Below the pieces are notes generated by a model. The model saw only the letters and a list, made by a program, of their open reading frames with translations. It did not search any database and had not been told where the DNA came from. Source: Prevotella sp. (GTDB lineage Bacteria > Bacteroidota > Bacteroidia > Bacteroidales > Bacteroidaceae). From it: 32,554 nt of DNA. Shown one piece after another: positions 1-30,099 of the stretch (positions are counted from its first letter, which is position 1; every line of letters begins with the position of its first letter). The position numbers and the translations under genes are program-made. The stretch covers positions 1-32,554 of the forward strand of contig JAFPWS010000004.1 of the NCBI GenBank assembly GCA_017412705.1, written 5' to 3'.

Positions 1-393
1 CTGCTGCTTGAACCAGCCCTTCGAGGGGTCGTTGTGGTCGATGTCCTGCTTGTAGTTGAAGAAGTACGCCGTCCTGTCGACGAACTGTTCTGTGTGCATA
101 TTATACGAGTGTACCATCGTGAAAGGCTTCACGTCGGTCACCTTGTCGATGGCCTTCAGGGCGTTGACGATGTTCTGGTCAAAGTTGGTGGCGGCAGCCA
201 CCTTGGTCTTGAACTCGTTCTCTGGCAATGTCAGTCCTGCTTCCACTTCTATCGTGTAACCGTCCTCGTCGGTAGCAGGGTCAACGATTTCTTTGCCGTT
301 GTCCTTGTCATCACTGTCGCTGCACGAGGTCAGTGTCATTCCAAGACCGCAGGTAAGGATGGCTGTCAGCATCCATAGATTCATCTTTTTCAT
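1..393 (-). CDS. Lipoprotein, 5' part of a PS-10/S37-like peptidase (runs off window)
   Basis: Reading leftward from an ATG at 393 gives 131 open codons to the window edge. The N-terminus MKKMNLWMLTAILTCG, followed by a hydrophobic stretch and LTSCSDSDD, is an SPII signal with lipobox cysteine 24, so the protein is a membrane-anchored lipoprotein. After an acidic linker, the last visible residues (YKQDIDHNDPSKGWFKQQ) match the N-terminal pattern I know from Bacteroidota PS-10/S37 and related S28 serine peptidases, where a D-H-x-x-P-x-x-G-x-F-x-Q segment precedes the alpha/beta-hydrolase core. The catalytic residues lie outside the window, so the activity is inferred. It lies 34 bp after the neighbouring leftward gene and is probably co-transcribed with it. 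Confidence 0.6.
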   Translation of the reverse strand, partial: MKKMNLWMLTAILTCGLGMTLTSCSDSDDKDNGKEIVDPATDEDGYTIEVEAGLTLPENEFKTKVAAATNFDQNIVNALKAIDKVTDVKPFTMVHSYNMHTEQFVDRTAYFFNYKQDIDHNDPSKGWFKQQ

Positions 394-427
394 CTAATTC
401 TAATGATTTTTTTTATTAATGTGTAAT

Positions 428-1150
428 TTACTTCTTATGGTGATAGTCTTGAATGAGTCCCTTCTTCACCAGAATGGGCAGGATGTTGGCTGCCGACTGG
501 CGGTCCCCCTTCTTCTGGCGGCCATAGTATTGCTCGAAGGTGACGGGGTCGTCACGCAGCAGCTGCTCCATGAAGGCATCGTTCAGACGGGTCATGATAT
601 ATTTTCCTTTTGCATTAGGCTCCTTGTCCACCAGATACAGAATGTGGTGCTGCATCAGGTCATCGTTGGTCAGCAATAGGTCGGTGGCGAGGAAGATAGA
701 GCCCCAAGTGGTATGACCAGTGGCAAGCAATGCGATGTCGAGACCGATGTTCACCAAGTCCAGGACATCACCCAAGGTCACATGGTAACTGACCACCAAC
801 AGCTTGTTACCCTTGTAAGGGAGGGCACGCAGGTAGTTATTGACTGGCAGGATACCACCGTCCTCGTCACGCAGGAAACGCTGGTTGATAAACAGCTGCT
901 TGTCAATCTGCATCATGAAGACGTCGTGCTTGATGACCTTGTTCACCTCCTTGTCGGAAGTCTTGAGGGTAAAGTCCTGTCCGTCGTACTTGACACGTAT
1001 CGAGTCGGGTTCCTTTTCAGGAATCAGGTCTGCATAGGGTTTCCACTGGTTAGTCTTGTACTCGGCATAACTGTTACAAAACTTGGTCTGAGCCTGTGCA
1101 TTCAGTGCCATGAGGCACATCAGCACCAATAATAACTTTACAGGTTTCAT
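428..1150 (-). CDS. Secreted protein of unknown function, 240 aa
   Basis: Start chosen at the ATG at 1150. The longer frame would begin at a GTG at 1180 and place ten polar residues before the signal peptide. From 1150 the protein begins MKPVKLLLVLMCLMALNAQA, a clean SPI signal with cleavage after AQA, so it is probably periplasmic. The region around residues 50-110 (conserved-looking phrases LKTSDKEVNKVIKHDVFMMQ, LFINQRFLR, YKGNKLLVVSYHV) recalls small Bacteroidota proteins filed under domains of unknown function, possibly DUF6563, but I cannot confirm this. No catalytic motif is visible. It precedes the S37-like lipoprotein gene by 34 bp in the same direction, suggesting one operon. Confidence 0.65.
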   Translation of the reverse strand: MKPVKLLLVLMCLMALNAQAQTKFCNSYAEYKTNQWKPYADLIPEKEPDSIRVKYDGQDFTLKTSDKEVNKVIKHDVFMMQIDKQLFINQRFLRDEDGGILPVNNYLRALPYKGNKLLVVSYHVTLGDVLDLVNIGLDIALLATGHTTWGSIFLATDLLLTNDDLMQHHILYLVDKEPNAKGKYIMTRLNDAFMEQLLRDDPVTFEQYYGRQKKGDRQSAANILPILVKKGLIQDYHHKK

Positions 1151-1312
1151 TTTTTTACTATTCCCTATATTCCGCAGCACTTTAGTTTAATAGCTTTTAT
1201 AAGTTCCTGAGCAACAAAAAGTTCTTCGACGCGCGAAGCGGCAAAGCCGAGCGGCCAAGGATTTTGTCATGTCAGATTTTTCACTTACCTTAGTGCTGCA
1301 ATTCAAGACAAG

Positions 1313-1344
1313 CAAAATCATCAATGACGTGGCAAAGGTACAAA
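1313..1344 (-). promoter_or_regulatory. Weak candidate promoter for the leftward operon
   Basis: On the minus strand, TTTG (1344-1341), then 20 nt, then TGATTTTG (1320-1313). This differs by one base from the Bacteroidota -7 element TAnnTTTG. It would give a leader of about 150 nt containing two small hairpins (CTTCG/CGAAG and CGGC/GCCG near 1213-1245). Weak evidence only. Confidence 0.3.
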
Positions 1345-1550
1345 TAAAATCTGAGAAAGTCACTCCTTTTGGAGGAATATTTCACGTAAGAGAACTTTTT
1401 CCCGTTATATGGCTCCGATTATCGACAAAGTGCTGGGGCTGCGATGTGCGTCGTACGGCTATCAGTACAGCGAGATCGTTGGTTCACTGTCAAGCGTCTA
1501 TTTCTGTGGTGGAGACTGCGTGGAGGATGTGACAAGCCGTATCAAAGCCT
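1329..1550 (+). pseudogene. IS1380-family transposase, N-terminal fragment, frameshifted
   Basis: From a GTG at 1329 the frame reads VAKVQIKSEKVTPFGGIFHV, the characteristic start of Bacteroidota IS1380 transposases (IKSEKLTPFGGIF). Near 1405 the homology moves to another frame, starting at ATG 1409: LGLRCASYGYQYSEI and SVYFCGGDCVEDVTS, again typical of the family. One base lost or two gained around 1400-1408 explains the shift. Only about 70 of the roughly 430 residues usual for the family remain and the catalytic DDE region is missing, so this is a dead fragment. It is joined directly to what looks like the end of fusA. The family identity is from memory of conserved phrases, not a search. 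Confidence 0.75.
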
Positions 1551-1613
1551 TTGTCTTCAGCACTGGCTAAGGCTGTGCTCGAGGAGGTGAAGGGACGTGC
1601 AGACTTAGTATAA
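1551..1613 (+). pseudogene. Probable 3' end of fusA (elongation factor G)
   Basis: Twenty codons read LSSALAKAVLEEVKGRADLV and then TAA. This lines up with the C-terminus of EF-G (E. coli ends ...APSNVAQAVIEARGK): S-x-x-A-x-A-V-(I/L)-E, then a basic/glycine end. The position supports it, because in many Bacteroidota fusA sits directly before rpsJ, which begins here 122 bp later. The rest of fusA is absent; the IS1380 fragment abuts it around 1540-1552. The essential full fusA must lie elsewhere, so this is either a duplicated segment end or a rearrangement scar. Identification rests on a short match. Confidence 0.5.
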
Positions 1614-1654
1614 TCTAGGAGAATTAGTCTGACTAGTCCTACTAGTATAACTAG
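1610..1654 (+). repeat. Five tandem 9-bp units before rpsJ copy 1
   Basis: Five consecutive nonamers, each ending in TAG (four CTAG, one TTAG) at 1618, 1627, 1636, 1645 and 1654, with the first five bases of each unit variable (for example TCTGACTAG, TCCTACTAG). The array sits between the fusA-like stop and the rpsJ leader hairpin. It has the same period as the array between rpoA and rplQ but a different sequence. Confidence 0.75.
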
Positions 1655-1669
1655 AAATTATAACGGAGT

Positions 1670-1697
1670 GCCGCTGAGCAAATGACTCTTTAGCGGC
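1670..1697 (+). promoter_or_regulatory. Leader hairpin of rpsJ copy 1
   Basis: GCCGCT (1670-1675) pairs with AGCGGC (1692-1697); GAG (1676-1678) can pair with CTC (1686-1688) inside. The 23 nt from 1675 to 1697 are identical to 8451-8473 before the second rpsJ, and in both cases exactly 38 nt separate the element from the ATG although those 38 nt differ. The loop contains a minimal reading frame ATG-ACT-CTT-TAG (1682-1693). I infer a ribosomal-protein autoregulatory site. No Bacteroidota promoter element is visible by eye upstream of it on this strand. Confidence 0.6.
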
Positions 1698-1735
1698 CTC
1701 CATATTTAAATAACAAATTAAACAATAAAAAGACA

Positions 1736-2041
1736 ATGAGTCAGAAAATTCGTATTAAGCTGAAGAGCTACGACCACAAACTCGTAGACAAGTCAGCAGA
1801 GAAGATTGTGAAGGCTGTCAAGGCCACAGGTGCTATCATCAGCGGTCCTATCCCCCTTCCCACACACAAGCGTATTTACACCGTGAACCGTTCGACCTTC
1901 GTTAACAAGAAGGCCCGTGAGCAGTTCCAGCTGTCAGACTACAAGCGTCTGATTGACATCTACAGCTCGACTGCTAAGACTGTTGATGCCCTGATGAAGC
2001 TCGAGCTCCCCAGTGGTGTTGAGGTAGAAATCAAGGTATAG
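1736..2041 (+). CDS. rpsJ: Ribosomal protein S10 (uS10/NusE), copy 1
   Basis: 101 residues, the normal S10 length, starting [20 protein letters not shown] and containing [17 protein letters not shown], the conserved loop that reaches into the 30S head. S10 is both a small-subunit head protein and NusE, the partner of NusB in antitermination. The protein is identical over all 101 residues to the copy at 8512, but I count 23 silent codon differences plus a different stop codon, so both copies appear to be held by selection. It stands alone: a probable fusA remnant lies upstream, a strong terminator (2061-2102) downstream, and no other ribosomal gene is adjacent. Confidence 0.97.
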
Positions 2042-2060
2042 TTTTAGTCACATTACGATA

Positions 2061-2102
2061 AAGTCCCGCAGCAGACGAAAATGGTCCTCGCGGGACTTTT
2101 TT
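2061..2102 (+). terminator. Intrinsic terminator of rpsJ copy 1
   Basis: AAGTCCCGC (2061-2069) pairs perfectly with GCGGGACTT (2090-2098) and is followed by a run of T. It lies 19 bp after the stop codon and makes this rpsJ a single-gene transcription unit at its 3' side. Confidence 0.9.
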
Positions 2103-2239
2103 GTCTTTTTTTTGCCTATTTCCTTTAAAAGTAAAAAAAATAAGCAATTTTGTAGGGATTATTACTATTTTGACCCACCATATCGCCCACTCAGCGATAC
2201 CTCTAGTTTCAATGACTATGTACTTCCCTAAAAATACTT

Positions 2240-2261
2240 CTATATTTATATATAAATATAG
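2240..2261. repeat. Perfect 22-bp AT palindrome
   Basis: The 22 bases 2240-2261 (CTATATTTATA and its exact reverse complement) form a perfect palindrome in the gene-free stretch 2103-2467. It could be a cruciform or a dimeric regulator site. Nothing else in this stretch looks like a gene. Confidence 0.7.
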
Positions 2262-2296
2262 AGTTAATTTTTGACTTTCATATAACTTATTTTGGA

Positions 2297-2321
2297 ACTG
2301 CAACACTGCAACAACTGCAAC
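2297..2321. repeat. Three direct copies of ACTGCAAC
   Basis: ACTGCAAC occurs at 2297-2304, 2305-2312 and 2314-2321, 36 bp after the AT palindrome. From memory, similar CTGCAACA runs recur between genes in Prevotella-type genomes. The function is unknown. Confidence 0.6.
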
Positions 2322-2467
2322 ACAGAGGAGAATGAACACGCTTATGACGCACAATACGACACCGAGTTATAAGAAAGTTGATCAAAAGAACCGTCGTTAC
2401 TGTGCTTGCTTTTTGTGTTCTGAACGGTCTTAAAGTTCCTGCTATCATCAACTTTTTGCCAAAATTG

Positions 2468-2500
2468 TTTGGAAGTTAGAGATTTTTTTTCGTATCTTTG
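2468..2500 (+). promoter_or_regulatory. Promoter of the 2535 lipoprotein gene
   Basis: TTTG (2468-2471), 21 nt, TATCTTTG (2493-2500): the Bacteroidota sigma-factor pattern. Transcription would start near 2507, about 28 nt before the chosen ATG. This excludes the longer frame that starts at 2469. Confidence 0.8.
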
Positions 2501-2534
2501 TCCCGAAGTATTTAACTTAATAACTAACCTAATT

Positions 2535-4490
2535 ATGACTAGTATGAGAAAATTATTTAATTGGATGTTCGCAGCTGTCCTGATTTGCTGCGGAGGAGGG
2601 TTGGCTTCCTGTGGCGAGAATGCTGACAATCCGGTTGACCCGAAGCCCTCGGAGATTAATCCAGAGGGTGTCCACTTGTTTGAGTTCGACTGGGATTATG
2701 ATCTGCCAGGTGGATATTATATAGCACCGGGTGTCTACGCAGAACTCAAGGAGACTTTAACTGAACTGATAGATGAGGAGCCGCAAATGGCGATTAACGA
2801 AGATACCTATCTGGTGATCCTCGACAAGGTCAGCGACCTGCCTGGTGACAAGTTGGTTGAACTCTATCACAGTGGTGTAACCATTGGTTTTGCTAATCCC
2901 AAGAAGGCGGAGATTGACGCCCTCTATCAGGAATATCCTGACCTGGGATACTATTGCAACGACGATGACATCGACAGGGCTCTGCTGTTTGCCATCAGCA
3001 GTTTCAACAACGGCTCCTACATCATACCCGACCCGGAGAAGTTCAAGGAGCAGTTCACCTACGAGTCTGATAATACTGACCCGACTGAGCCGACTGACCC
3101 AGGAGCGGGTGATCCCAATGACCCCATCGTCTATACTCCTGATGATGATCACAGTCTGCTCTATTTTTATTATGGAATGTTCTTGCAGGATCTGACTTCA
3201 GAGCAGGCCAAATATGATGATGAAGTAGCCCAGGCCCGTGCCATGAACAGAGCAGGTGAAAAAGAAGACAAACTCACTGCACAGATTAAGCGTGCAGAGG
3301 GCAAAGCACATGTTGGTAAGCCAGGTGTTATTAAGATCAGCGAGATCTATTTCCGATCGAGTTACAGGTTCAATGGCGAGGCGGTTGTAAATTTGGGTTG
3401 CGATGTCTATCCTATCCATGTGTATGAGGGTGAAAACGGTGCTGGCGACTACTATTTCATGGACATGACAGCCAGTATCAGCAATGAAACCATGTACAAG
3501 GGTAAAGATGGCTACTGGACAGGTGGTGCCCCAGTTTATCTGCGGTGGTGCGGTGCATACGCAACCAAATTCAGGGCTGCCAGCACGCTGATCAACGCCA
3601 ATGACGATAAAGAAGTAGCTAATGTGATGTTCACGGCAGAAGGTTTCCCAATACCCAGCACCGTCGTCAAGGATGTTGATCACTCAGAGTCGAAAACCTT
3701 TAGTATCGGATGCGGCATCTCTGGCGGCTATGATGGAAAAAGTGGATCAGAATCATCAGGAGAACCAGGTCATGATCCTACAGCTGAAAAATTAACCAGT
3801 GGAGGTCAATGGGGCATCAAAGCCAGTGTCAATCCCAGCTGGAGCTGGACTGATACTAAAAAGTGGAATGTCAAGGATGTCGACCTGGAGAACCAGACGA
3901 GCGGTAATACTGCAGCATGGTCACTTATCTATAACAACCTGCCGGAATTTAATTCAGGTTATGAATATTGGTATAAAGAAGGTGAATCAAGATCCTTCAG
4001 GTCGACAACTACAATCAGAGGTTCTTGGGTTTGGTATATTCCCAATGTACCCGATGATTCAGAGCCGACCCCAAGACGCATAAAATTGGATGCATCAGCT
4101 GACTATGGCTTCCAGAGATTCTTTGCTACAAAAGCCGACAACAAAGAGTTCAGATGGCACGCCAATTGGAATGTTGTCTGCAACATGCCGAAAATTGCCA
4201 ATTACAAGGCCGGCAACATCATCCTGAAGAATGACACCACGAAATTTATCTCCAACATCATGGTCTATAACAAGGATGGCAAGGAAATGATCTCCAAGTA
4301 CAGATTCCAGAACAGCTATCCCGCCGGTCAGGAGATTAAACTGGGTGCCTTCAGGTGTACTGACGACTTGATTGTCAAGTTCAAGATGGACGGCAAGACC
4401 TACGTCTATAAGCAGAACGACTATGTTAAGCCTATCTTCAAGGAGAGTGTAACGCTTTACGTCACCAATGACTTTAAAAAAGAGGAATAG
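2535..4490 (+). CDS. Large surface lipoprotein of unknown function, 651 aa
   Basis: Start taken at ATG 2535 (2544 is also possible) because the promoter lies at 2468-2500. MRKLFNWMFAAVLICCGGG is followed by LASCGEN, an SPII signal with lipobox cysteine. An N-terminal part of about 200 residues ends in a Pro/Asp/Thr linker (TDPTEPTDPGAGDPNDP). The remaining 430 residues look beta-rich and aromatic (GYDGKSGSESSG, SWSWTDTKKWNVKDVDLENQ, WYIPNVP, FRWHANWNVV). The alternating W/Y pattern with a Gly/Ser-rich central loop faintly recalls beta-pore-forming proteins of the leukocidin type, but I see no diagnostic motif and do not assign that function. A terminator follows at 4561. It is a single-gene unit, probably outer-membrane anchored. 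Confidence 0.8.
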   Translation: MTSMRKLFNWMFAAVLICCGGGLASCGENADNPVDPKPSEINPEGVHLFEFDWDYDLPGGYYIAPGVYAELKETLTELIDEEPQMAINEDTYLVILDKVSDLPGDKLVELYHSGVTIGFANPKKAEIDALYQEYPDLGYYCNDDDIDRALLFAISSFNNGSYIIPDPEKFKEQFTYESDNTDPTEPTDPGAGDPNDPIVYTPDDDHSLLYFYYGMFLQDLTSEQAKYDDEVAQARAMNRAGEKEDKLTAQIKRAEGKAHVGKPGVIKISEIYFRSSYRFNGEAVVNLGCDVYPIHVYEGENGAGDYYFMDMTASISNETMYKGKDGYWTGGAPVYLRWCGAYATKFRAASTLINANDDKEVANVMFTAEGFPIPSTVVKDVDHSESKTFSIGCGISGGYDGKSGSESSGEPGHDPTAEKLTSGGQWGIKASVNPSWSWTDTKKWNVKDVDLENQTSGNTAAWSLIYNNLPEFNSGYEYWYKEGESRSFRSTTTIRGSWVWYIPNVPDDSEPTPRRIKLDASADYGFQRFFATKADNKEFRWHANWNVVCNMPKIANYKAGNIILKNDTTKFISNIMVYNKDGKEMISKYRFQNSYPAGQEIKLGAFRCTDDLIVKFKMDGKTYVYKQNDYVKPIFKESVTLYVTNDFKKEE

Positions 4491-4523
4491 TTCGGATTAG
4501 TCCGGATGTTTGGTTAAGGAAAT

Positions 4524-4553
4524 CTCCCCCCGCTTGTCCCGAAGCGAGGGGAG
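4524..4553. repeat. G/C hairpin of the CTCCCC...GGGGAG type
   Basis: CTCCCC (4524-4529) pairs with GGGGAG (4548-4553) and CGCTT (4531-4535) with AAGCG (4542-4546), leaving one C/A mismatch. It is the same kind of palindrome as the one inside the gene at 29211-29240 and probably a member of a dispersed intergenic repeat family. Confidence 0.6.
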
Positions 4554-4560
4554 GTTATTT

Positions 4561-4595
4561 GTTGGGCTCAGTCCGAAATGCTCAACGGGCTTTTT
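4561..4595 (+). terminator. Intrinsic terminator after the 2535 gene
   Basis: GTTGGGC (4561-4567) pairs with GCTCAAC (4580-4586) with one G-U pair, followed by GGGC and TTTTT (4591-4595). Confidence 0.75.
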
Positions 4596-4951
4596 GGCCT
4601 GAAGGCGGAGCAGTGCTGATAAAACTCGGCAATAACGATTATCTGCTGGCAGGCACAGGCATTGTTGTAGTTTTTGCCTCTACATACGAAAAGGCTCACG
4701 AACAGCAGCAAGTGCTTGGCGAAGACGGCTTCGTAGCTGTCGGAACCCAATCAGACATCAAGCATCAGCCATCGACCTCCTTTAATGGCTCTCGCAAGGG
4801 CATTGTGAGCGTAGACGAGGTGAACATCGACAAGAATGGCAAGATGCAATACCTGCGCCGTCTGAATGGCGATCAAGATCACCAAGGCCGTCACGTGCGT
4901 ATAGCCTGTGGCGATTGGAAGATTCTGCACGTACGCCTGTATGATTATTAA
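4595..4951 (+). pseudogene. C-terminal fragment of a GH35/DUF5597 beta-galactosidase-like protein
   Basis: The reading frame WPEGGAVLIKLGNNDYLLAG, then VVVFASTYEKAHEQQQVLGE, SVDEVNIDKNG, YLRRLNGDQDHQGRHVRI and a final DWKILHVRLYDY corresponds, from memory, to the extreme C-terminus of Bacteroidota GH35 proteins with a DUF5597 domain. About 118 of the usual 530-550 residues remain. The glycosidase barrel with its catalytic glutamates is missing and the fragment begins inside the preceding terminator's T-run, so it has no promoter or proper start. It is a decayed gene end. Confidence 0.7.
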
Positions 4952-5006
4952 TAAAGAGGGTGTGTTTTTATTGTTTTATTTGTTTGTTTCGTGATTTTAT
5001 CGTATC

Positions 5007-5099
5007 GTTTGCCAACGAAAATCATACCGCCACCCTGCACTCAGGGAATCAAGCCAAAGCATGCGTTGTCTATAACGATTGGCGATACTTGTTGGCAAA
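5007..5099. repeat. Inverted repeat pair framing about 75 bp
   Basis: GTTTGCCAAC (5007-5016) and its reverse complement GTTGGCAAA (5091-5099) frame a short segment in the gene-free stretch 4952-5156. Inside, ATACCGCC (5024-5031) can pair with GGCGATAC (5081-5088) using wobble pairs, and CCCTG/CAGGG (5033-5037/5042-5046) form a small hairpin. It could be a miniature element or the template of a structured leftward RNA. Confidence 0.45.
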
Positions 5100-5126
5100 G
5101 GTACGAAAAAGTAGAGATAATACAAA
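5096..5126 (-). promoter_or_regulatory. Leftward promoter without a visible gene
   Basis: On the minus strand, TTTG (5126-5123), 19 nt, TACCTTTG (5103-5096), a full match to the Bacteroidota consensus. Transcription would begin near 5089 and run through the inverted-repeat segment. No convincing reading frame follows in that direction. Confidence 0.6.
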
Positions 5127-5156
5127 ACAAAATGCGAACAAATGTTGACTTTTATT

Positions 5157-5188
5157 TTTGGGTATGTCGAAAAATTTAAGTAATTTTG
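5157..5188 (+). promoter_or_regulatory. Promoter upstream of the XRE regulator
   Basis: TTTG (5157-5160), 20 nt, TAATTTTG (5181-5188). Predicted start near 5195, about 90 nt before the regulator's ATG, with a terminator-like hairpin in between. Confidence 0.75.
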
Positions 5189-5231
5189 CATTTCGTCAAA
5201 CTACTACCTTTACATGAATAGCGACAAAGAT

Positions 5232-5260
5232 CTGCCAGAAAACGTTGGCGGGCTTTTTTT
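5232..5260 (+). terminator. Terminator-like hairpin in the regulator leader
   Basis: CTGCCA (5232-5237) pairs with TGGCGG (5246-5251), followed by GC and seven T (5254-5260). It lies between the promoter and the coding region, so it would either attenuate the regulator or end a short RNA of about 65 nt. Confidence 0.65.
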
Positions 5261-5287
5261 ATGTAAACCCTTTAAACACTTACAACA

Positions 5288-5508
5288 ATGATACAAGAAA
5301 AAAAGAAGTATGAGTCGCAGCTACGGCTGTACGATGTGTTAGAGAAAAAAAGGTGACCAACCGCAGACTTGCCAGTCTGATAGGTGTTTCTGAACAGCAG
5401 GTTGGCAAGTATGTAAACAAACGCGAAGACCCCTCTCTTTATCGCCTGCACCAGATTGCCCATGCGCTCGGAGTGCTGGTGAAAGACCTTTTTGAGCCTA
5501 TCGACTAA
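5288..5508 (+). pseudogene. Small XRE-type helix-turn-helix regulator with a frame break at seven A
   Basis: From ATG 5288 the frame reads MIQEKKKYESQLRLYDVLEK and meets TGA at 5354. At the run of seven A (5345-5351) a -1 shift (or one extra A) gives VTNRRLASLIGVSEQQVGKY, then VNKREDPSLYRLHQIAHALG and LVKDLFEPID, stop at 5506. The second half is a standard Cro/C1 HTH (LASLIGVS..QVGKYVNKRE). The joined protein would have about 73 residues, a normal size for this class. The HTH is well preserved, so recoding by slippage at the A run or a sequencing error is as plausible as true inactivation. A promoter (5157) precedes it and a terminator (5529) follows. Confidence 0.65.
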
Positions 5509-5528
5509 ACGTATAGGTTTAGTAATGA

Positions 5529-5556
5529 CGTCCCGACGGAAAATCGGGGCGTTTTT
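5529..5556 (+). terminator. Terminator after the XRE regulator
   Basis: CGTCCCGA (5529-5536) pairs with TCGGGGCG (5544-5551, one G-U), followed by TTTTT. A second inverted repeat, ACTAAAC/GTTTAGT (5504-5523), overlaps the regulator's stop codon. Confidence 0.8.
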
Positions 5557-5648
5557 CCTTGCACGCTTCGCGGAAGTTGCGTAACTTCGCAGCATGGACG
5601 TATCGATATTACAACATTCGCGGGACTCGAGTCCGCAGACAGTGAGCA

Positions 5649-5894
5649 TCAGTCAAGTGGCCAGTCAGATTCGTGGTGGAACATGGCCGCCTCGACATTG
5701 TTTCGTTTGCGCTGCTCTTCGGGCGGCAGGCTCTCTATTTGCTTTCGTAGCTTGTAGGCTTCAATGTCCTTGTCCTCGAAGTAGCGCCAGCCTGTCTTGT
5801 TGTTCCAAGGAATCCGCCACCGCTTTCTGGTTCCCTGTTTCGTGACGGCCTTGACTGCCTCATAGGTGTTGCCGGTAGCTATCTCCCTGACATT
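5649..5894 (-). pseudogene. C-terminal fragment of an unrecognised protein
   Basis: A leftward frame without a start codon, beginning just inside the cut end of hipA in another frame, reads TGNTYEAVKAVTKQGTRKRW, RIPWNNKTGWRYFEDKDIEA, a charged helix YKLRKQIESLPPEEQRKRNN and a last stretch to the stop at 5649. About 80 residues, rich in W, K, R and E, look like real protein, but I do not recognise the family. The absence of a start and the abrupt junction with hipA indicate a gene end fused to the hipA remnant by deletion or insertion. Confidence 0.45.
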
Positions 5895-6328
5895 TCAATG
5901 GGAGGAACACGGTATTTTTCGCTTGCATTGATGAAGCTATTGTTACCTTCCTCCTTGTAGCGTATACCACCCATACGAGTGAAATCCTCAATACCGATAA
6001 GGTAATCGTAATTGGTGAGCATACGTGTCGGCCTGCCTTCTGACTGAGCCGTCAGCCGTTCCCTGCGGTCAAGCAGCAAACGGCCCCAACGGTCGGGGAA
6101 AGAATCCTTGACGAAACCGAATACATTGTCATTCCCGCGAGGATGCTGCAGCGAAGGAACATTCATCAGGTCACCGCTCAGCAGTATACCGCCATATTGC
6201 TTCAGCCACTCGCGAGAATACTCAAAGACAAAATGACCCTTGCTGCGAACATGTTCGTAGCCCAGTATTCCTATCTCCTGAGGAGCAGAGAGGAAGTCGA
6301 AATCTGCATAAACCGTTATTCTTTTCAT
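5879..6328 (-). pseudogene. HipA-like kinase, N-terminal third only
   Basis: 149 residues: MKRITVYADFDFLSAPQEIG, FEYSREWLKQYGGILLSGDL, NVFGFVKDSFPDRWGRLLLD, YDYLIGIEDFTRMGGIRYKE and VPPIEM, the order of phrases found in the N-subdomain of HipA toxins (the D-S-x-P-D-x-W-G-R motif is diagnostic). Full HipA proteins have about 400-440 residues; here the frame stops just after the I-P-P-(L/I) motif and the kinase catalytic domain is absent. The start ATG overlaps the hipB stop (ATGA, 6325-6328), the usual hipBA arrangement. It cannot phosphorylate anything. If made at all, the stub could at most bind the HipB-like partner. Confidence 0.75.
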
Positions 6329-6624
6329 TTCCTCAGTAATTCTGCATCCTGAGGTTGTCTGCCTAAGGCATCATCGGCAGCAAGCAGGGTGATGTCGTTT
6401 TCCAGATTCAGCGCAAAGAGTACTCGAGCATAAATGCCCATGGAGACCGTCGGGTCGCCATGTTCCACTTTAGAGACAGTCAGTCGGGTCACCGTTGCCC
6501 TGTCTGCTATGTCCTGCATGGACAGATGTCTGCGCTTGCGTGCCAGCATAATCTGTTCGCCCATGATCTTCAGGTTCTGGCTCAATGCCCTTGGCATCGT
6601 CTTTCCAAATGTATTCTTGCCCAT
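6325..6624 (-). CDS. HipB-like antitoxin/repressor, XRE family
   Basis: 99 residues with an HTH at about positions 22-75: ARKRRHLSMQDIADRATVTR, LTVSKVEHGDPTVSMGIYAR, a typical HipB/XRE sequence. In hipBA modules this protein represses its own operon and neutralises HipA. The gene overlaps the truncated hipA by 4 bp. A near-consensus promoter at 6644-6674 would start transcription only about 12 nt before the ATG. Because the toxin is cut off, this is now an orphan regulator. The HTH looks intact. Confidence 0.8.
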   Translation of the reverse strand: MGKNTFGKTMPRALSQNLKIMGEQIMLARKRRHLSMQDIADRATVTRLTVSKVEHGDPTVSMGIYARVLFALNLENDITLLAADDALGRQPQDAELLRK

Positions 6625-6643
6625 AATTGTACTTTATTGGGTG

Positions 6644-6674
6644 CAAATATAAGGAATAATGTTTAATATAACAA
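6644..6674 (-). promoter_or_regulatory. Promoter of the hipBA remnant
   Basis: On the minus strand, TTG (6674-6672), 20 nt, TATATTTG (6651-6644), a full consensus match. Predicted start near 6637, so the leader is very short. Confidence 0.8.
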
Positions 6675-6838
6675 GCATTTTATGGAAAATCTGCATTATC
6701 TCCCTTGTTTTTTATTCATATTGGAGATCGCTGGAGAGATTGCGGGACTCTCCGATTATTCTTCGGCGACTGGATTTGAACCGATGGTGGCAGTGTAGCC
6801 ATAATAAACCTGAACGAGGAAAAAGACATATCGTTGGC

Positions 6839-6922
6839 GTGGTTTTATCAATCTACGCCGTGGATTTAACAATCATCGGCGTGGATTTAACAATCATCGA
6901 CGTGGATTTAAGCTTGTACGGC
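6839..6922. repeat. Four 21-bp tandem repeats
   Basis: Units at 6839-6859 (diverged), 6860-6880, 6881-6901 (nearly identical to the previous one) and 6902-6922 (diverged second half), each starting GTGG and carrying TTTAAC or a variant. Because the period is divisible by three, they would read as a seven-residue repeat (VDLTIIG), but no convincing gene surrounds them. The stretch 6675-6996 holds no other feature I can support. Confidence 0.85.
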
Positions 6923-6996
6923 ACTTCAACACCCTTTCCCCCGTACCTCACAACCTTTTAGGACGGGCCTCTGGTCATTCCAAGAAGGTGTTTCGT

Positions 6997-8184
6997 CTAT
7001 CTGCCTATTTGTTTTTTCAGTCTCAGGATGCGGCGCACGCTCTGGTCGATGCGCTGCTCGCTGAGGGTGCCGTTCTCCACAGCCTTGACTACGGCATCGA
7101 AAGCTTCGACGAAGTTCTGCGGACCCAGCACGATGTCGGCGCCGGCCTGTAGCGTGCCCACAGCAGCCTCGGCGTTGGTGTACTGCCGGGTAATGGCTCC
7201 CATCTCCATGGCGTCGGTGATGATGATGTTCTGGTAGCCTAGTTCGCCGCGCAGCTTGTCCTGCAGGATGACGGACGACATGGTGGCAGGGATGTCGGAC
7301 CCCGTGACGTTAGGTGTGGCGATGTGGGCCGTCATAATCAGCTGTGTGCCCCACGCGATACCCGCCTTGAAGGTAATCATTTCGCAATCCAGCATCTCAG
7401 CCCACGTCTTGAGGCTCTGCGCATAGCCATAGTGTGTGTCGGACTTGGTGTCGCCATGTCCGGGGAAGTGCTTGATGCAGCCCGAGATGCCGGCATCCTT
7501 TAGTCCCTGCAGGTAGCTCGTGACCATTGTCGCAGCCACCTCGGGGTCGTCGCTGAAGGCTCGGGCACCGATGACGATGTTCTCAGGATTGGTGTTCACG
7601 TCGGCCACGGGGGCAAAGTCGATGTCGAAGTCGTAGAGACTTAGGTAGGTGCCGATGATGTTACCGCAGTAGTAGGCGTTTTGCGGGTCGCCCGTAGCAC
7701 CGATGGCAGCCATCGACACAAATGTCTCCACATCGAAGTCCTCGCTGTTGCCGATGCGGGCCACGCGGCCTCCTTCCTCGTCGATGCACAATAGTGGCGA
7801 GCCTTTCAGGGCACGAATCTGCGGGATGAACGCCGCGAGCTGTACCTCGTCCTTGATGTTGTGGGCATAGAGGATGATGCCGCCCACGGGGTACTTCTCG
7901 TTCACGCCCAGCATCGTGGCGTTCACAGCCTGCAACTTGATGGCCTTGATATCGTCCGCACTTTCGTCGATGCCGCTGGGCAGATTGAAGTGGATAGTGG
8001 TGTCGAGGCACTCAGGGCGCACATAGAACAGCTGTCCCACCTTTTCGCGCAGCGTCATCTTCTGTAGTTGCGACTCCACCTCGTCAGTCGGCGCGACGGG
8101 GTCATCCTCGTTCGTACACGAGGACAGGATAAAGCCGCAAACGGCAAGGAAGGCCATTCCTTTTGAAAGGGTGGCGGCGAGCAC
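6997..8184 (-). CDS. GH3-family beta-N-acetylhexosaminidase lipoprotein (NagZ-like)
   Basis: Single GH3 N-terminal barrel without the C-terminal GH3 domain, as in NagZ. Diagnostic motif KHFPGHGDTKSDTH carries the Asp-His acid/base dyad, and IIITDAMEMGAI carries the nucleophile Asp. LREKVGQLF near the start and PLLCIDEEGGRVAR are also typical. It probably removes beta-N-acetylglucosamine from peptidoglycan fragments or glycans. The longest frame starts at 8274, but the promoter's -33 box lies there and transcription should begin near 8237. I therefore choose GTG 8184, which gives a signal with a lysine followed by MAFLAVCGFILSSC (lipobox). ATG 8157 is the alternative. It is a lipoprotein facing the periplasm or the surface and stands alone, divergent from rpsJ copy 2. 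Confidence 0.9.
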   Translation of the reverse strand: MLAATLSKGMAFLAVCGFILSSCTNEDDPVAPTDEVESQLQKMTLREKVGQLFYVRPECLDTTIHFNLPSGIDESADDIKAIKLQAVNATMLGVNEKYPVGGIILYAHNIKDEVQLAAFIPQIRALKGSPLLCIDEEGGRVARIGNSEDFDVETFVSMAAIGATGDPQNAYYCGNIIGTYLSLYDFDIDFAPVADVNTNPENIVIGARAFSDDPEVAATMVTSYLQGLKDAGISGCIKHFPGHGDTKSDTHYGYAQSLKTWAEMLDCEMITFKAGIAWGTQLIMTAHIATPNVTGSDIPATMSSVILQDKLRGELGYQNIIITDAMEMGAITRQYTNAEAAVGTLQAGADIVLGPQNFVEAFDAVVKAVENGTLSEQRIDQSVRRILRLKKQIGR

Positions 8185-8243
8185 CCTATTAAGAATCTTT
8201 TTCGTCTTATTTGAGCCAAATCCGTAGTTCTCTTTTTCAGTCG

Positions 8244-8275
8244 GCAAAGATACGGAGTTATTTCGAATAATCAAA
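8244..8275 (-). promoter_or_regulatory. Promoter of the GH3 gene
   Basis: On the minus strand, TTTG (8275-8272), 20 nt, TATCTTTG (8251-8244). It lies inside the longest reading frame and so argues for a start codon at 8184 or 8157. Confidence 0.8.
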
Positions 8276-8397
8276 ATTTTGGGGCGGTAAATTCAAGACT
8301 CCATTTCTTTTAATAGAAGCGATTACGCCGCCAAAAGCCGAGGTCAGGCCAAAGTATTAAAAATCCTTAATATCCGCGCTTTTGCCTTGCCGGAATG

Positions 8398-8427
8398 TTG
8401 GAATCTCACGGGAAATGTGTAATTTTG
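8398..8427 (+). promoter_or_regulatory. Promoter of rpsJ copy 2
   Basis: TTG (8398-8400), exactly 19 nt, TAATTTTG (8420-8427), a complete consensus match. The predicted start near 8434 places the leader hairpin at 8446-8473 within the first 40 nt of the RNA. Confidence 0.85.
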
Positions 8428-8445
8428 CAGCCCGAAAAAGAACTG

Positions 8446-8473
8446 TCCGTTGAGCAAATGACTCTTTAGCGGC
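8446..8473 (+). promoter_or_regulatory. Leader hairpin of rpsJ copy 2
   Basis: CCGTT (8447-8451) pairs with AGCGG (8468-8472) using one G-U pair. Bases 8451-8473 are identical to 1675-1697 in front of copy 1 and again lie 38 nt before the ATG. Relative to copy 1, the left arm changed C to T while pairing is kept as G-U. The loop contains the same ATG-ACT-CTT-TAG mini-frame. Confidence 0.6.
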
Positions 8474-8511
8474 AGTATGGTATTAACATTTTAAACAAAA
8501 AAACAGAGACA

Positions 8512-8817
8512 ATGAGTCAGAAAATTCGTATCAAGCTGAAGAGCTACGACCACAAGCTCGTGGACAAGTCAGCCGAGAAGATTGTGAAGGCCGTCAAGGC
8601 CACCGGTGCTATCATCAGCGGTCCTATCCCCCTTCCCACCCACAAGCGTATCTACACCGTCAACCGCTCAACCTTCGTCAACAAGAAGGCCCGCGAGCAG
8701 TTCCAGTTGTCAGACTACAAGCGTCTGATTGACATCTACAGCTCTACCGCTAAGACGGTTGACGCCCTGATGAAGCTCGAACTCCCCAGCGGTGTTGAGG
8801 TTGAGATCAAGGTCTAA
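8512..8817 (+). CDS. rpsJ: Ribosomal protein S10 (uS10/NusE), copy 2
   Basis: 101 residues, identical in sequence to the product of the gene at 1736, with differences only at synonymous positions. Start [34 protein letters not shown] present. This copy has a consensus promoter (8398) and a strong terminator (8848), so it forms a complete single-gene unit. It is the nearer copy to rplC, its usual downstream neighbour, but a flavoprotein gene and a new promoter separate them. This copy uses C-ending codons more often than copy 1 (for example GTC, ACC, AAC), which would fit higher expression. Confidence 0.97.
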
Positions 8818-8847: not shown

Positions 8848-8877
8848 AGGCGTATCCGGTAGCGGGTACGCCTTTTT
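8848..8877 (+). terminator. Terminator of rpsJ copy 2
   Basis: AGGCGTATCC (8848-8857) pairs with GGGTACGCCT (8864-8873) over 10 bp with one G-U pair, followed by TTTTT. It separates rpsJ transcription from the genes downstream. Confidence 0.9.
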
Positions 8878-9038: not shown

Positions 9039-10046
9039 ATGGAGCAAGTAAAAGTATTGATTGCAGGTGCAGGGCCGGCAGGAACTGTCTGCGGTCTGCT
9101 GCTGAGGGAACAGGGTGTCGACTGCATGCTGGCAGACCGTGCCCAGTTCCCCCGTGACAAAATTTGCGGCGGTGGGCTGACACCCCGTTCCTACCGTCTG
9201 CTGAGCAGTCTGCTGCCCACATTCCGCTACGACTACAATAGCGTGACGCGACTGAAGCTGCTGCTCGAAGGAGAACAAATCTTCGACCTCCACATGGACA
9301 GGGAACTGCGCATCGTGAAGCGCCGCGAGTTCGATAACCGCCTGCTCGACGAATACCGCAGGGGTGGGGGCCGGTTTGTCAACGATGCCTTGACGGCCAT
9401 CGAGGAACGCGACGGGAGGGTGATTGTGACGCTGAAGTCAGGCCGTCAGGTGTGTTGCGAATATTTGGTGGGGGCCGACGGTGCCAACAGCCGTGTGAGG
9501 AAATACCTTGCTCCGCACTCTGACCATGGTGTGTTGTGTATGGAGCAGTATGGTCCGAAGTCGTCCGACAATGCCATCGTTATCAACGTGTCGAACCAAT
9601 ATGACCAGGGGTATTACTACGCATTCCCTAACGAATCATGCGACGTGCAGGGTTTTGGCGACCATAGCACCGTACCTCGGAAATTTCGCAAAGTGCTCGA
9701 CGACATGGGCTGTCCCGACCTGAAGGCCAAAGGGGCCTATATCCCCAACAGTATCGACTATCCGCTCCACGACCGTATCATCCTTATCGGTGATGCAGGC
9801 GGCTTCCCTAACCGTCTGACGTTTGAGGGCCTCTACTATGCCTTTCTTACGGCTAAGCATGCTGCAGAGGCCATTCTCACGGGCCGTCCGTTCAAAGAGA
9901 TTAACCACAAAGTGTTTGCAAAAAAGAAAAAAGAGGAGCGCGAAGCCCGTTTCTTCTACAGCCGCTATGGCCTTGGCCTCCTGAAACTGCTTTGTAGGCG
10001 ATTCCCGCGAGTGATACGGTGGTGTTTTAACAGAGTAACAAAGTAA
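9039..10046 (+). CDS. Geranylgeranyl-reductase-family FAD-dependent oxidoreductase
   Basis: 335 residues. Rossmann FAD motif at the start: VLIAGAGPAGTVCGLLLREQ (GxGxxG). DKICGGGLTPRSY is the characteristic Cys-Gly-Gly motif of the geranylgeranyl reductase/FixC-like group; LVGADGANSRVRK and IILIGDAGGFPN are the second and third flavin-binding motifs. Members reduce isoprenoid double bonds or act as related flavin monooxygenases; the substrate here is unknown. It is soluble, without signal peptide. It has its own promoter and lies between rpsJ copy 2 and rplC, an unusual place, since these two ribosomal genes are normally adjacent. Start ATG 9039 gives the expected short lead to the FAD motif. 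Confidence 0.85.
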   Translation: MEQVKVLIAGAGPAGTVCGLLLREQGVDCMLADRAQFPRDKICGGGLTPRSYRLLSSLLPTFRYDYNSVTRLKLLLEGEQIFDLHMDRELRIVKRREFDNRLLDEYRRGGGRFVNDALTAIEERDGRVIVTLKSGRQVCCEYLVGADGANSRVRKYLAPHSDHGVLCMEQYGPKSSDNAIVINVSNQYDQGYYYAFPNESCDVQGFGDHSTVPRKFRKVLDDMGCPDLKAKGAYIPNSIDYPLHDRIILIGDAGGFPNRLTFEGLYYAFLTAKHAAEAILTGRPFKEINHKVFAKKKKEEREARFFYSRYGLGLLKLLCRRFPRVIRWCFNRVTK

Positions 10047-10151: not shown

Positions 10152-10182
10152 TTGTCGGTTTCATATAAAATATGTACCTTTG
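10152..10182 (+). promoter_or_regulatory. Promoter of the rplC ribosomal operon
   Basis: TTG (10152-10154), 20 nt, TACCTTTG (10175-10182). The short inverted repeat AAGCC/GGCTT (about 10140-10153) touches the -33 box and might be an operator. This makes rplC, not rpsJ, the first gene of the operon. Confidence 0.8.
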
Positions 10183-10378: not shown

Positions 10379-10993
10379 ATGCCAGGATTAATTGGAAGAA
10401 AAATCGGAATGACATCCGTTTTCAGTGCCGACGGTAAGAATGTGCCGTGCACTGTTATCGAAGCTGGCCCTTGTGTTGTTACTCAGGTGAAGACCGTCGA
10501 GAAGGACGGTTACAAAGCCCTTCAGCTGGCTTATGGTGAGAAGAAGGAAAAGAACACCACCAAGCCTATGATGGGTATCTTTAAGAAGGCTGGTACGACA
10601 CCAAAGGCCCACTTGGCCGAGTTCAAGTTTGACGAGGAGCACAACCTGGGCGACACCATCACGGTGGAGCTGTTCAACGACGCTGAGTTTGTTGACGTGG
10701 TTGGTACTTCTAAGGGTAAAGGTTTCCAGGGTGTTGTGAAGCGCCACGGTTTCGGTGGTGTCGGTCAGAGCACCCACGGTCAGGACGACCGTCTGCGTAA
10801 GCCGGGTTCTATCGGTGCCTGTTCTTACCCCGCCAAGGTGTTCAAGGGAATGCGCATGGGTGGCCAGATGGGTGGCGACCGCGTGACAACGCAAAACCTG
10901 AGAGTGTTAAAGGTAATACCGGAGCACAACCTGATTCTTGTTAAGGGTAGTTGCGCTGGTTGTAATGGTTCAACTGTTTTAATTGAGAAGTAA
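10379..10993 (+). CDS. rplC: Ribosomal protein L3 (uL3)
   Basis: 204 residues beginning [16 protein letters not shown]3 is a primary 23S-binding protein whose central loop reaches the peptidyl-transferase centre; the loop is present as [20 protein letters not shown]. In E. coli the corresponding GQNQTPGKV segment carries the glutamine methylated by PrmB; here it is GACSYPAKV, so no glutamine is available in this stretch. First gene of the ribosomal cluster, 3 bp before rplD, transcribed from the promoter at 10152. Confidence 0.97.
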
Positions 10994-26819: not shown

Positions 26820-29800
26820 ATGAGTACAACGGCAAGCAACATACCCCAGGAGTTCAATAACTTCTTCTTGAAAGATGTCAGCTTCGTCAACCTGATGACG
26901 AAGCGCATCTTTAATATCCTGATAGTGGCCAACCCCTACGATGCCTTCATGCTGGAGGACGACGGCCGCATAGACGAGAAGCTGTTCGACGAGTATATGG
27001 AGCTGGGGCTGCGCTATCCGCCGACGTTCACGCAGGTCAGTACCACCGAGGAGGCTGACCATGTGCTGCAGACGACAGACATCGACCTGGTGATCTGTAT
27101 GCCGGGTAACGCTGACAACGATGCCTTTGCCGTGGCACGCGACGTGAAGCGCATGGCACCGTCCATCCCCATTGTGGTGCTGACGCCCTTCTCGCATGGC
27201 ATCACCAAGCGTATTGAGCACGAGGACATGTCCATCTTCGACTACGTGTTCTGCTGGTTGGGCAATACCAACCTCATCCTCTCCATCATCAAGCTGATAG
27301 AAGACCAGATGAACATTGAGCACGACATCGAGGAGGCTGGCGTGCAGGTCATCCTGCTGGTAGAGGACAACATCCGCTTCTACAGTTCCGTGCTCCCCAA
27401 CCTGTATAACTACATCCTGGCACAGTCGAAGAACTTCTCCACCGAGGCCCTGAACCCCCATGCCGCGGCACAGCGCAAGCGTGGACGCCCGAAGGTGGTG
27501 CTGGCTACAACCTACGAGGAGGCCATCCACTGGTATGAGATGCACCACGACAACATCCTGGGCGTCATCTCAGACACACGTTTCCCCATGCAGGGCGTGA
27601 ACGGGCGTCTGGCGCATGTCGAGGAGGGTGACCCGGAGGCTGGCCTGAAGCTGCTGCGTGAGATCAGGAGGCGCGACGAGTATGTGCCCCTCATCCTGCA
27701 GAGCTCGGAGGTTGTCAACAAGGCCAAGGCGGAGGCCGAGGGCTTCCTCTTTGTGGACAAGAACTCCAAGAAGATGAATGTCGACCTGCGCCAGCTCATT
27801 GAGGAGCACATGGGCTTTGGCGACTTTGTGTTCCGCGACCCTGTGACCAAGCAGGAGGTGGCCCGTGTGTCGTCGCTGAAGGAGCTGCAGGACAACATCT
27901 TCAAGATTCCCAACGACTCCATGCTATACCATATCTCGCGCAACCACATGAGCCGCTGGCTCTGTGCGCGGGCCATCTTCCCCGTGTCGCAGTTCCTGAA
28001 GCACGTCACCTGGCATAAGCTGAAGGATGTCGATGCACACCGTAAGATTATCTTCGATGCCATTGTGCAGTACCGCCGTATGAAGAATATCGGTGTCGTG
28101 GCTGTCTTCGACCGTCTGAAGTTCGACCGCTATGCCCACTTCGCACGCATTGGCGACGGCTCGTTGGGCGGCAAGGGCCGCGGCCTGGCATTCCTCGACA
28201 ACATCATCAAGCGCCATCCGGAGCTCAACCAGTTTGAGAATGCCAGCGTGCAGATACCCAAGACCGTTGTGCTGTGTACCGACTTCTTCGATGAGTTCAT
28301 GGACAACAACAACCTGTGGACCATTGCCTTGAGCGATGCCCCTGACGATGAAATCCTGCAGCACTTCATGCGCGCACAGCTGCCTGATGCGCTGATAGCC
28401 GACTTCTTCACCTTCTTCGATGCCGTCAAGGCACCTATCGCCGTGCGCTCCAGCTCGCTGCTGGAGGACTCCCACTACCAGCCTTTCGCAGGCATCTACT
28501 CGACCTATATGATACCCTATCTCGACGACAAGTATGAGATGCTGCGCATGCTGGCGTGTGCCATCAAGGCCGTCTATGCCTCGGTTTACTACCGTGACTC
28601 CAAGGCTTACATGACAGCCACCTCCAATGTCATAGACCAGGAGAAGATGGCCGTCATCCTGCAGGAGGTGGTGGGCCGTCAGTACGACACGCGCTTCTAT
28701 CCTACGTTCTCAGGCGTGCTGCGTTCGCTGAACTACTACCCCATAGGCGACGAGCTGGCCGAGGAGGGTATTGCCTCGCTGGCCCTCGGACTGGGCAAGT
28801 ATATTGTCGATGGTGGTCAGACGCTGCGCGTGTCGCCCTACCATCCCCGTCAGGTGCTGCAGACCTCGGAGATGGAGACAGCCCTGCGTGAGACGCAGAC
28901 GCGCTTTTATGCCCTGGACATGTCGCACATTGGCGACGACTTCAAGGTGGACGACGGCTTTAACATCCTGAACCTCCGAGTCAAGGAGGCCGACAAGGAC
29001 GGCTCGCTGCAGGGCATCGCCTCTACCTATGACCCCAACGACCAGATTATCCGCGACGGCATCTATGAAGGGGGCCGCAAGGTCATCTCCTTCACGGGTG
29101 TCCTGCAGCATGGCGTGTTCCCCCTGCCTGAAATCCTGCAGATGGCACAGAAGTATGGCTCTGAGGAGATGCGCCGTCCTGTGGAGATTGAGTTCGCCTG
29201 CAACCTGCAGTCCTCCCCTGCAGGGGGAGGTGTGGAGGGGGCTTTCTACCTCCTCCAGATTCGTCCCATTGTCGACTCCAAGCAGGTGCTTGACGAAGAC
29301 CTTGCCGCCATTCCTGACGAGCAGTGTCTGCTGCGCTCGCACAACTCGCTGGGTCACGGCATCTCCGAGGATGTGGTCGACGTGGTCTACGTCAAGGCTG
29401 ACGATGACTATACCGCCGCCAACAACCCCGTCATTGCTGAACAGATAGAGCAGATTAACAGGAAATTCTTGGATGACCCCGAGGGGGGTAATTACATCCT
29501 CATCGGCCCCGGACGCTGGGGCAGCAGCGACTACTGGCTGGGCATTCCCGTCAAGTGGCCCCATATCTCGGCAGCCCGTGTCATCGTGGAGGCAGGCCTG
29601 AAGAACTACCATGTAGACCCCTCGCAGGGCACACACTTCTTCCAGAACCTGACGTCCTTTGGCGTGGGCTATTTCACCATCAATACCTATACGGGCGATG
29701 GCATCCTGCAAAAGGAAATCCTCGACGCCATGCCTGCTGTCGAGGAGACGGAGTTCGTGCGCCACGTCCGCTTCGACCGTCCGCTGCGCATCATGATGGA

Positions 29801-29942: not shown

Positions 29943-30099
29943 TCACCATCAATACCTACACGGGCGATGGCATCCTGCAAAAAGAAATCCTCGACAGCAT
30001 GCCTGCTGTCGAGGATACGGCGTTTGTGCGCCACGTCCGCTTCGACCGTCCGCTACGCATCATGGACGGTTAGAAGCAGCACGGCGTGGTATTATTACC
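29943..30099 (+). pseudogene. Duplicated 3' end of the 26820 gene
   Basis: Bases 29943-30099 repeat 29674-29833 with about 12 substitutions and one 3-base deletion, roughly 92% identity by my count. The frame reads TINTYTGDGILQKEILDSMP AVED and so on, but GGC-AAG became GGT-TAG, a premature stop. Only the last 53 codons of the gene are present, without promoter or start. The right end runs into the opposing repeat-protein gene at a shared GGTATTATTA-like sequence. Confidence 0.9.

Follow-up and report, generated by a model that had tools for sequence, protein, structure and literature searches.

Two rpsJ genes for one S10 protein on a Prevotella contig: a possible sister-lineage copy beside a probably resident gene, and a candidate S10 leader hairpin

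Introduction

Ribosomal protein S10 is encoded by rpsJ, a gene that often serves as a single-copy marker. Contig JAFPWS010000004.1 of a Prevotella sp. genome bin (GCA_017412705.1) carries two rpsJ genes, copy A (1736..2041, + strand) and copy B (8512..8817, + strand), and thus raises the question where the second gene came from and whether both are at work. The stretch analysed here, referred to as the window, comprises 32,554 nucleotides and is identical with contig C83 in its entire length; the draft bin to which it belongs amounts to 3.42 Mb, is distributed over 96 contigs and is 86% complete. The answer favoured here, to which we give an about even chance, is that copy B is the resident, promoter-bearing gene, while copy A is a transplanted, fusA-linked gene in a recombination hotspot.

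Additional genes for ribosomal proteins are known as such. In its available text, a census of ribosomal protein paralogs lists 74 identical or nearly identical proteins and, for two species whose copies are the same at every nucleotide, points to either a recent duplication or an artefact of assembly (Yutin et al. 2012, PMC3353972). In contrast to the mass duplications described in that text, which are nucleotide-identical, the two Prevotella genes differ at 24 silent sites and stand in two regulatory contexts.

Results and Discussion

Two intact rpsJ genes encode the same S10 protein

Translation of copies A and B yields the same S10 protein of 101 residues. The genes differ at 24 of 306 nucleotides, located in 24 codons: 23 are sense codons with exclusively synonymous changes and one is the stop codon (TAG vs TAA). 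This recount agrees with the original prediction, which had reported an identical protein, 23 silent codon differences and unlike stop codons. Both copies are full-length and exceed the curated cut-offs for bacterial S10 (NF001861, 149.9 bits with a cut-off of 85; TIGR01049, 137.5 with a cut-off of 72.75), and the 86%-complete bin contains no other S10 match. Of the named database matches to the protein, the top ten or so of 80 are Prevotella and other Prevotellaceae, often of ruminant origin. Upstream of the genes, the likeness extends over a 23-nucleotide leader core (1675-1697 and 8451-8473), for which a search of the bin allowing up to 3 mismatches gave no further occurrence.

A second S10 gene had been called unusual, and two surveys bear this out. 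At the level of the order, the present genome is the only one of 80 with two S10 matches, 77 having one and 2 none. For the genus, the DNA search covered 398 genomes; 200 of them were also searched by protein, as were those 17 of the remainder that gave at least two DNA matches. Two intact rpsJ genes on the same contig occur in only 2 of the 398, the present genome (G000) and G235. Three further genomes (G077, G248 and G364) contain two full rpsJ genes on separate contigs; since fusA, too, is present twice in G077, the additional gene having 84% identity to the query, contamination is suspected as the source of its second rpsJ. The 20 genomes assembled in at most 4 contigs that are listed in the DNA survey have one rpsJ match each.

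How unusual the silent divergence is can be judged from 66 collected rpsJ genes, of which 45 (from 43 genomes, both window copies included) encode exactly this S10 protein. The 988 between-genome pairs of these same-protein genes differ by a median of 25 nucleotides (range 3-67). The 24 nucleotides between A and B are therefore ordinary between-species divergence, at which an identical protein is usual, and the two copies look like genes of two species. Moreover, both are closer to other genomes than to each other, which is not expected of in-paralogs kept by selection in one lineage: copy A is nearest to G131 (96.4%, 11 differences) and copy B to G327 (94.1%, 18 differences), while A and B are 92.2% identical. 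In a tree of 50 rpsJ genes, A and B are not grouped together, with weak support. A fresh tandem duplication was ruled out by the 24 silent differences and by the lack of a common flank beyond leader and gene; an old pair under joint selection is not needed, as the distance equals the between-species median.

The silent changes had been taken to mean that both copies have been under selection and that neither is a fresh copy of the other. The latter stands. The former does not follow for this genome, because the distance is at the between-species level and the same pattern results if each gene was under selection in a lineage of its own and the two were later brought together by transfer or mis-assembly.

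Copy B is a complete unit, copy A follows a remnant of fusA

Copy B possesses all parts of a stand-alone gene, namely promoter motif, leader hairpin, coding sequence and terminator. The motif TAATTTTG (8420..8427, + strand), located 92 nucleotides before the gene, matches TAnnTTTG, which we take to be the Bacteroidetes -7 motif. It is followed by the leader hairpin (8444..8475, + strand; loop 8454-8465), which has the same structure as that of copy A, and an intrinsic-terminator-like hairpin lies downstream of the gene (8848..8873, + strand; minimum free energy (MFE) of -25.8 for the stretch folded). The remaining S10 operon, beginning with rplC (10379..10993, + strand), has a promoter motif of its own, TACCTTTG (10175..10182, + strand).

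Copy A is of the fusA-linked type and has no recognisable promoter. It likewise possesses a leader hairpin (1668..1699, + strand) with a 10-bp stem and the loop GCAAAUGACUCU (1678-1689), as well as an intrinsic-terminator-like hairpin (2055..2104, + strand; MFE -22.9 for the stretch folded). TAnnTTTG was not found on the + strand of window positions 1-1736 upstream of the gene. Instead, the 3' end of fusA is situated 122 nucleotides before copy A as a relic of 66 nucleotides (1548..1613, + strand), comprising the last 21 codons and the stop codon. Adjoining it is a frame-shifted, probable transposase relic (1340..1547, + strand), recognised from its translation; it gave no significant match to Pfam, and the presumed label IS1380-like was not confirmed. 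The end of the fusA relic, the spacer and the hairpin form a stretch of 107 nucleotides (1596..1702, + strand) that is identical to the fusA-rpsJ junction of the relative G282. The intact fusA of the bin is located on another contig, C89, where it is followed by a Kelch-like gene and not by rpsJ. The label Kelch-like was given by eye, since no Pfam family matched; a gene of this kind is also located after fusA in three genomes with rpsJ in stand-alone form, namely G067, G296 and G117, the last of which is a single contig.

The difference seen between the copies thus lies on the side of transcription, with a promoter motif before B and none before A. Being cut off from the str promoter, copy A is probably transcribed weakly or not at all. 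A role of one copy in antitermination, S10 also being NusE, had been proposed, and is not supported by two genes with identical proteins and the same leader. More generally, two working genes might serve dosage or particular conditions, with constitutive transcription of B, an unrecognised promoter for A and one of them devoted to NusE and antitermination. The intact coding sequences, leaders and terminators of both copies are in keeping with such a division of labour. Identical proteins, the missing motif before A and the rarity of same-contig doubling in the genus make it very improbable.

The rpsJ locus occurs in two forms across the genus

In Bacteroides finegoldii the gene order is rpsL-rpsG-fusA-rpsJ-rplC, with 81 nucleotides between fusA and rpsJ. 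To compare the loci of the genus, 54 stretches were fetched. One of these, C89, lacks rpsJ, and six with broken, gapped or truncated rpsJ were excluded (G286, G037, G365, G291, G280 and G282 C1); the remaining 47 together with the window provide 50 intact rpsJ genes. In 36 of them the gene is located 79-220 nucleotides after the fusA stop codon, whereas the other 14 lie at least 1048 nucleotides from fusA or have no fusA in the upstream stretch. TAnnTTTG within 160 nucleotides of the start codon is found in none of the 36 fusA-adjacent genes vs all 14 stand-alone genes, in which it is positioned 84-109 nucleotides upstream. Fisher's test gives a p-value of 1e-12 if the genes are taken as independent, which they are not, so that this value exaggerates the difference. 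The reversed motif is present in none of the 36 fusA-adjacent genes and in 1 of the 14 stand-alone genes. Four named Prevotella loci without fusA in the upstream stretch all display the motif; two of them, L208 and L209, apparently correspond to G363 and G187, and L216 includes only 367 nucleotides upstream.

On the rpsJ tree, fusA-linked and stand-alone genes are interleaved, with 11 changes among 50 genes compared to a mean of 12.5 after shuffling, and at least 3 changes are forced by starred (well-supported) branches. The fusA tree contains 21 full-length genes, just one of them from a stand-alone locus, which are too few to count switches. Interleaving is also in keeping with an ancestor that possessed both forms and whose descendants lost one or the other, the present genome and G235 retaining both, and the 14 stand-alone genes do share a similar promoter region. 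Vertically inherited paralogs should, however, split by form on the tree, and such a split is not seen. Moreover, the first rpsJ of G235 follows its own fusA, both grouping with G221/G018, while its second rpsJ groups with that of G067. Gene conversion could mask a split, and ancestral duplication with reciprocal loss is regarded as improbable.

The gaps between fusA and rpsJ and between rpsJ and rplC often contain cargo, which differs between most mapped loci of the genus, as is characteristic of an insertion hotspot. The available text of a 2017 study (PMC5635113) describes hotspots with the same traits, i.e. variable cargo between conserved genes, often no recognised mobile elements, and core genes serving as homology anchors. 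Unlike those, the Prevotella window has the essential anchor gene rpsJ itself apparently doubled inside.

Three relatives fit repeated arrival and loss of rpsJ. The locus of G235 reads, on one contig, fusA-rpsJ-Kelch-like gene-two genes-rpsJ, and G067 shares this cargo with rpsJ on the far side only. G282 has an intact rpsJ after fusA and a second copy on another contig, which begins at codon 8, is 98% identical over residues 8-101 and is followed by DNA 86% identical to window positions 4824-5597, all inside a contig of 200 kb.

In this second copy of G282 (L081, 8512-8961), the reading frame of S10 residues 8-101 continues into some 56 residues of foreign origin, and the leader hairpin is absent. 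Unless mis-assembled, it represents a decaying or captured S10 gene. A decaying copy in a relative had been named as counter-evidence to two selected genes, and with this leaderless copy it is in part seen.

Transfer from a sister lineage or mis-assembly

The favoured history of the locus would begin with a str-S10 operon (rpsL-rpsG-fusA-rpsJ-rplC) that was opened into an insertion hotspot on both sides of rpsJ. The gene would then have been kept in either of two forms, behind fusA without a motif of its own or apart from fusA with the motif, and with the same leader in both. Copy B would be the resident working gene in stand-alone form. Copy A would have come from a sister lineage as a block of fusA tail, spacer, leader, rpsJ and terminator, which recombination would have placed among the cargo that separates fusA from rplC. 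This direction of transfer is suggested by copy A having only a relic of fusA, by the intact fusA on C89 without rpsJ and by the junction identical to that of G282, which together make B probably the resident and A the arrival. If real, the window would show the replacement of an essential ribosomal gene caught in progress. It would also hint at how essential genes pass between species, as a second copy may cost little if its protein is the same and it brings along its leader and terminator.

Several observations weigh against this history. The coding sequence of copy A differs from that of G282 at 15 of 306 bases despite the 107 identical nucleotides before it; copy A is therefore a mosaic, made by recombination or by assembly, and its donor is not simply G282. 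The lack of a promoter before A is judged by a single motif, and the 50 genes compared are not a random sample, most of them coming from the genomes that a single DNA search placed closest to copy B. In the rpsJ tree 4 of 47 inner branches are starred, and neither window copy has a starred placement. The doubled cases come from draft bins, and no integrase or transfer genes were recognised by a Pfam scan among the 7 cargo open reading frames of the window.

The main rival is a chimera of assembly or binning, in which a left piece with copy A and a right piece with copy B, from different strains or species, were joined via a short sequence present in both. In that case the true gene order would be fusA-Kelch-like gene-...-rpsJ B-rplC, with a single rpsJ. 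Such a join could have occurred at several places. Contig C89 carries fusA, the Kelch-like gene, an AAA ATPase and a transposase, and its terminal 97 bases match window positions 5677..5773 without a difference, as at a branch of the assembly graph; these bases lie inside a transposase remnant (weak DDE_Tnp_1_6 match, below cut-off, on the C89 side). A second possible mis-join point is a dispersed repeat of about 100 bp (2226..2325), which is mostly 86-99% identical in many genomes of the genus. A third is the start of copy A, where 107 identical bases give way to 5% divergence. The mosaic leaves the odds of a chimera unchanged, since recombination and mis-assembly fit it alike. A chimera is also consistent with the single match in each of the 20 listed genomes of at most 4 contigs, with the normal between-species distance of 24 nucleotides and with rpsJ being broken or gapped in the bins of five relatives (G286, G037, G280, G365 and G291).

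On the other hand, A and B share one contig, and a second bin, G235, is doubled with different cargo. The gene at the left end of the window has a homologue in G040, located about 1.3 kb after rpsJ, which fits the same island, and the truncated second rpsJ of G282 lies within its 200-kb contig. Taken together, a chimera is considered unlikely, though it has to be reckoned with more than any other alternative to transfer.

The broken genes deserve mention in their own right. In G286 (L090), G037 (L091) and G280 (L094), rpsJ after fusA has internal deletions and no intact copy was found elsewhere in the assemblies; since rpsJ is essential, assembly error is likely. G365 and G291 have runs of N in rpsJ. 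Caution is thus advised with rpsJ as a break point in Prevotella genome bins.

A covarying leader hairpin precedes rpsJ

Irrespective of the origin of copy A, the leader core is present before all 50 intact rpsJ genes of the genus. It folds into a hairpin with a 10-bp stem closing a 12-nucleotide loop of the consensus GCRAAUGACUCU. The alignment comprises 60 distinct sequences from the genus and from four other genomes of the order; 59 of these were chosen by the loop pattern and the remaining one, from G286, has a variant loop, so that the invariance of the loop is partly due to selection of the sequences. In the stem, 94.7% of the cells are paired and 105 cells are changed on both sides vs 30.0 in shuffled alignments. 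The covariation score amounts to 0.558, compared to 0.191 after shuffling and at most 0.165 after sliding. Double changes affect 9 of the 10 stem pairs vs 6.6 in shuffles, a weaker signal reached by 9 of 500 shuffles. The hairpin thus displays what defines a ribosomal protein leader (r-leader), a conserved and covarying structure 5' of a ribosomal protein gene. The third loop base tracks the second stem pair in 59 of 59 hairpins, A occurring with G-U (46) and G with U-A (13), a coupling that may be due to an interaction within the hairpin or to the existence of two lineages.

In two wider sets of loci, the strict pattern AATGACTCT, which misses variants, is found upstream of rpsJ in 39 of 78 parsed named loci (80 in total, 2 unparsed) and in 4 of 28 order-level loci (from a set of 29). 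Named records with the core include Bacteroides, Mediterranea, Paraprevotella, Hoylesella, Paludibacter and Dysgonomonas. The strict pattern was not found in some Prevotella, Hoylesella and Bacteroides loci, nor in the loci examined from Muribaculaceae, Rikenellaceae and Tannerellaceae, where fusA and rpsJ are mostly within 30 nucleotides of each other.

Rfam scans gave no known RNA family for the hairpin. In the window, no match was obtained with E values up to 1, and nine relatives gave three unrelated weak matches only, all below the cut-offs. In common with described r-leaders (PMC7247131, PMC11109978), the hairpin is a structured, covarying element located 5' of a ribosomal protein gene. 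In the available text of these sources, the r-leader table of 2020 has L13 and S4 as its Bacteroidia entries (Eckert and Weinberg 2020, PMC7247131) and an rpsJ motif was reported in 2024 from Peptostreptococcaceae (PMC11109978). The S10 or rpsJ leaders named there belong to Firmicutes and Peptostreptococcaceae, whereas the Prevotella hairpin matches no Rfam family. Among the titles listed in a literature search, which mostly did not cover subscription journals, none was recognised as describing a Bacteroidales rpsJ hairpin. The hairpin is therefore presented as a candidate undescribed S10 leader, through which S10 may regulate its own synthesis, as suggested by where the hairpin lies and by the example of other r-leaders. 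It is the most useful result of this analysis and merits follow-up whether transfer or mis-assembly is right, since in Prevotella, Bacteroides, Dysgonomonas and relatives it constitutes a testable candidate for S10 feedback that does not depend on the duplication.

A wider scenario would combine both subjects: rpsJ might move repeatedly between read-through from str and a promoter of its own, by arrival of a sister-species copy and subsequent loss of the old one, with the hairpin as an undescribed autoregulatory S10 leader of Bacteroidales. Such a relay would be tolerated because each copy brings an S10-responsive hairpin that buffers dosage. As a whole, we consider this scenario unlikely.

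The loop was also considered as a boxA and rejected as such. It has only the 5 nucleotides CUCUU in common with what we take to be the E. coli boxA consensus, and the rRNA leaders of the genus show a different motif. Seven of eight rRNA upstream regions of the genus (L154-L161) contain GTTCTTTGAAA upstream of the 16S rRNA, presumably a boxA-like element, and the eighth (L155) contains GTTCATTGAAA. None of these eight leaders contains AATGACTCT; AGCAAATGACT occurs in one of them, 511 nucleotides before the 16S rRNA, which is taken as chance. In the available text of a gamma-proteobacterial survey, putative boxA elements upstream of rpsJ in three genera are said to suggest autoregulation by NusE (S10) (Baniulyte et al. 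2017, PMC5725501).

Cargo and other features of the window

Between the two rpsJ copies, the window encodes a protein without Pfam or NCBIfam match (2535..4490, + strand; DNA 94% identical in G323), followed by three genes on the opposite strand. These are a HipA N-terminal domain fragment assigned by Pfam (5879..6328, - strand), a HipB-like helix-turn-helix protein below the NCBIfam cut-off (6325..6624, - strand) and a member of glycoside hydrolase family 3 (6997..8274, - strand), whose nearest NCBIfam entry, beta-N-acetylhexosaminidase, is just below the cut-off. A flavin adenine dinucleotide (FAD) protein, nearest to the geranylgeranyl reductase family and below its cut-off, is located between copy B and rplC (9039..10046, + strand); its homologue in G095 lies between fusA and rpsJ.

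Carriage of rpsJ on plasmids or phages was considered as well. S10 matches occur in 64 plasmid and 13 phage records, 20 of which are listed. Of the two Bacteroides plasmid records inspected, H2 is a fragment of the str-S10 operon and H4 has no annotation; rpsJ may still be carried by other records.

Towards the right end of the window, about 105 bp after the end of a PEP-synthase-like gene (26820-29837), approximately the last 50 codons of this gene are present once more in decayed form, a 3'-end relic resembling that of fusA at 1548-1613. The 3' end of the gene (29674-29837) and its relic (29943-30099) are 93% identical over 122 nucleotides, and the relic has a 3-nucleotide deletion and an in-frame stop codon. 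Finally, repeats of about 83 codons (246-249 nucleotides) are found at 30691-32546, in and around a reverse-strand gene (30060-32531).

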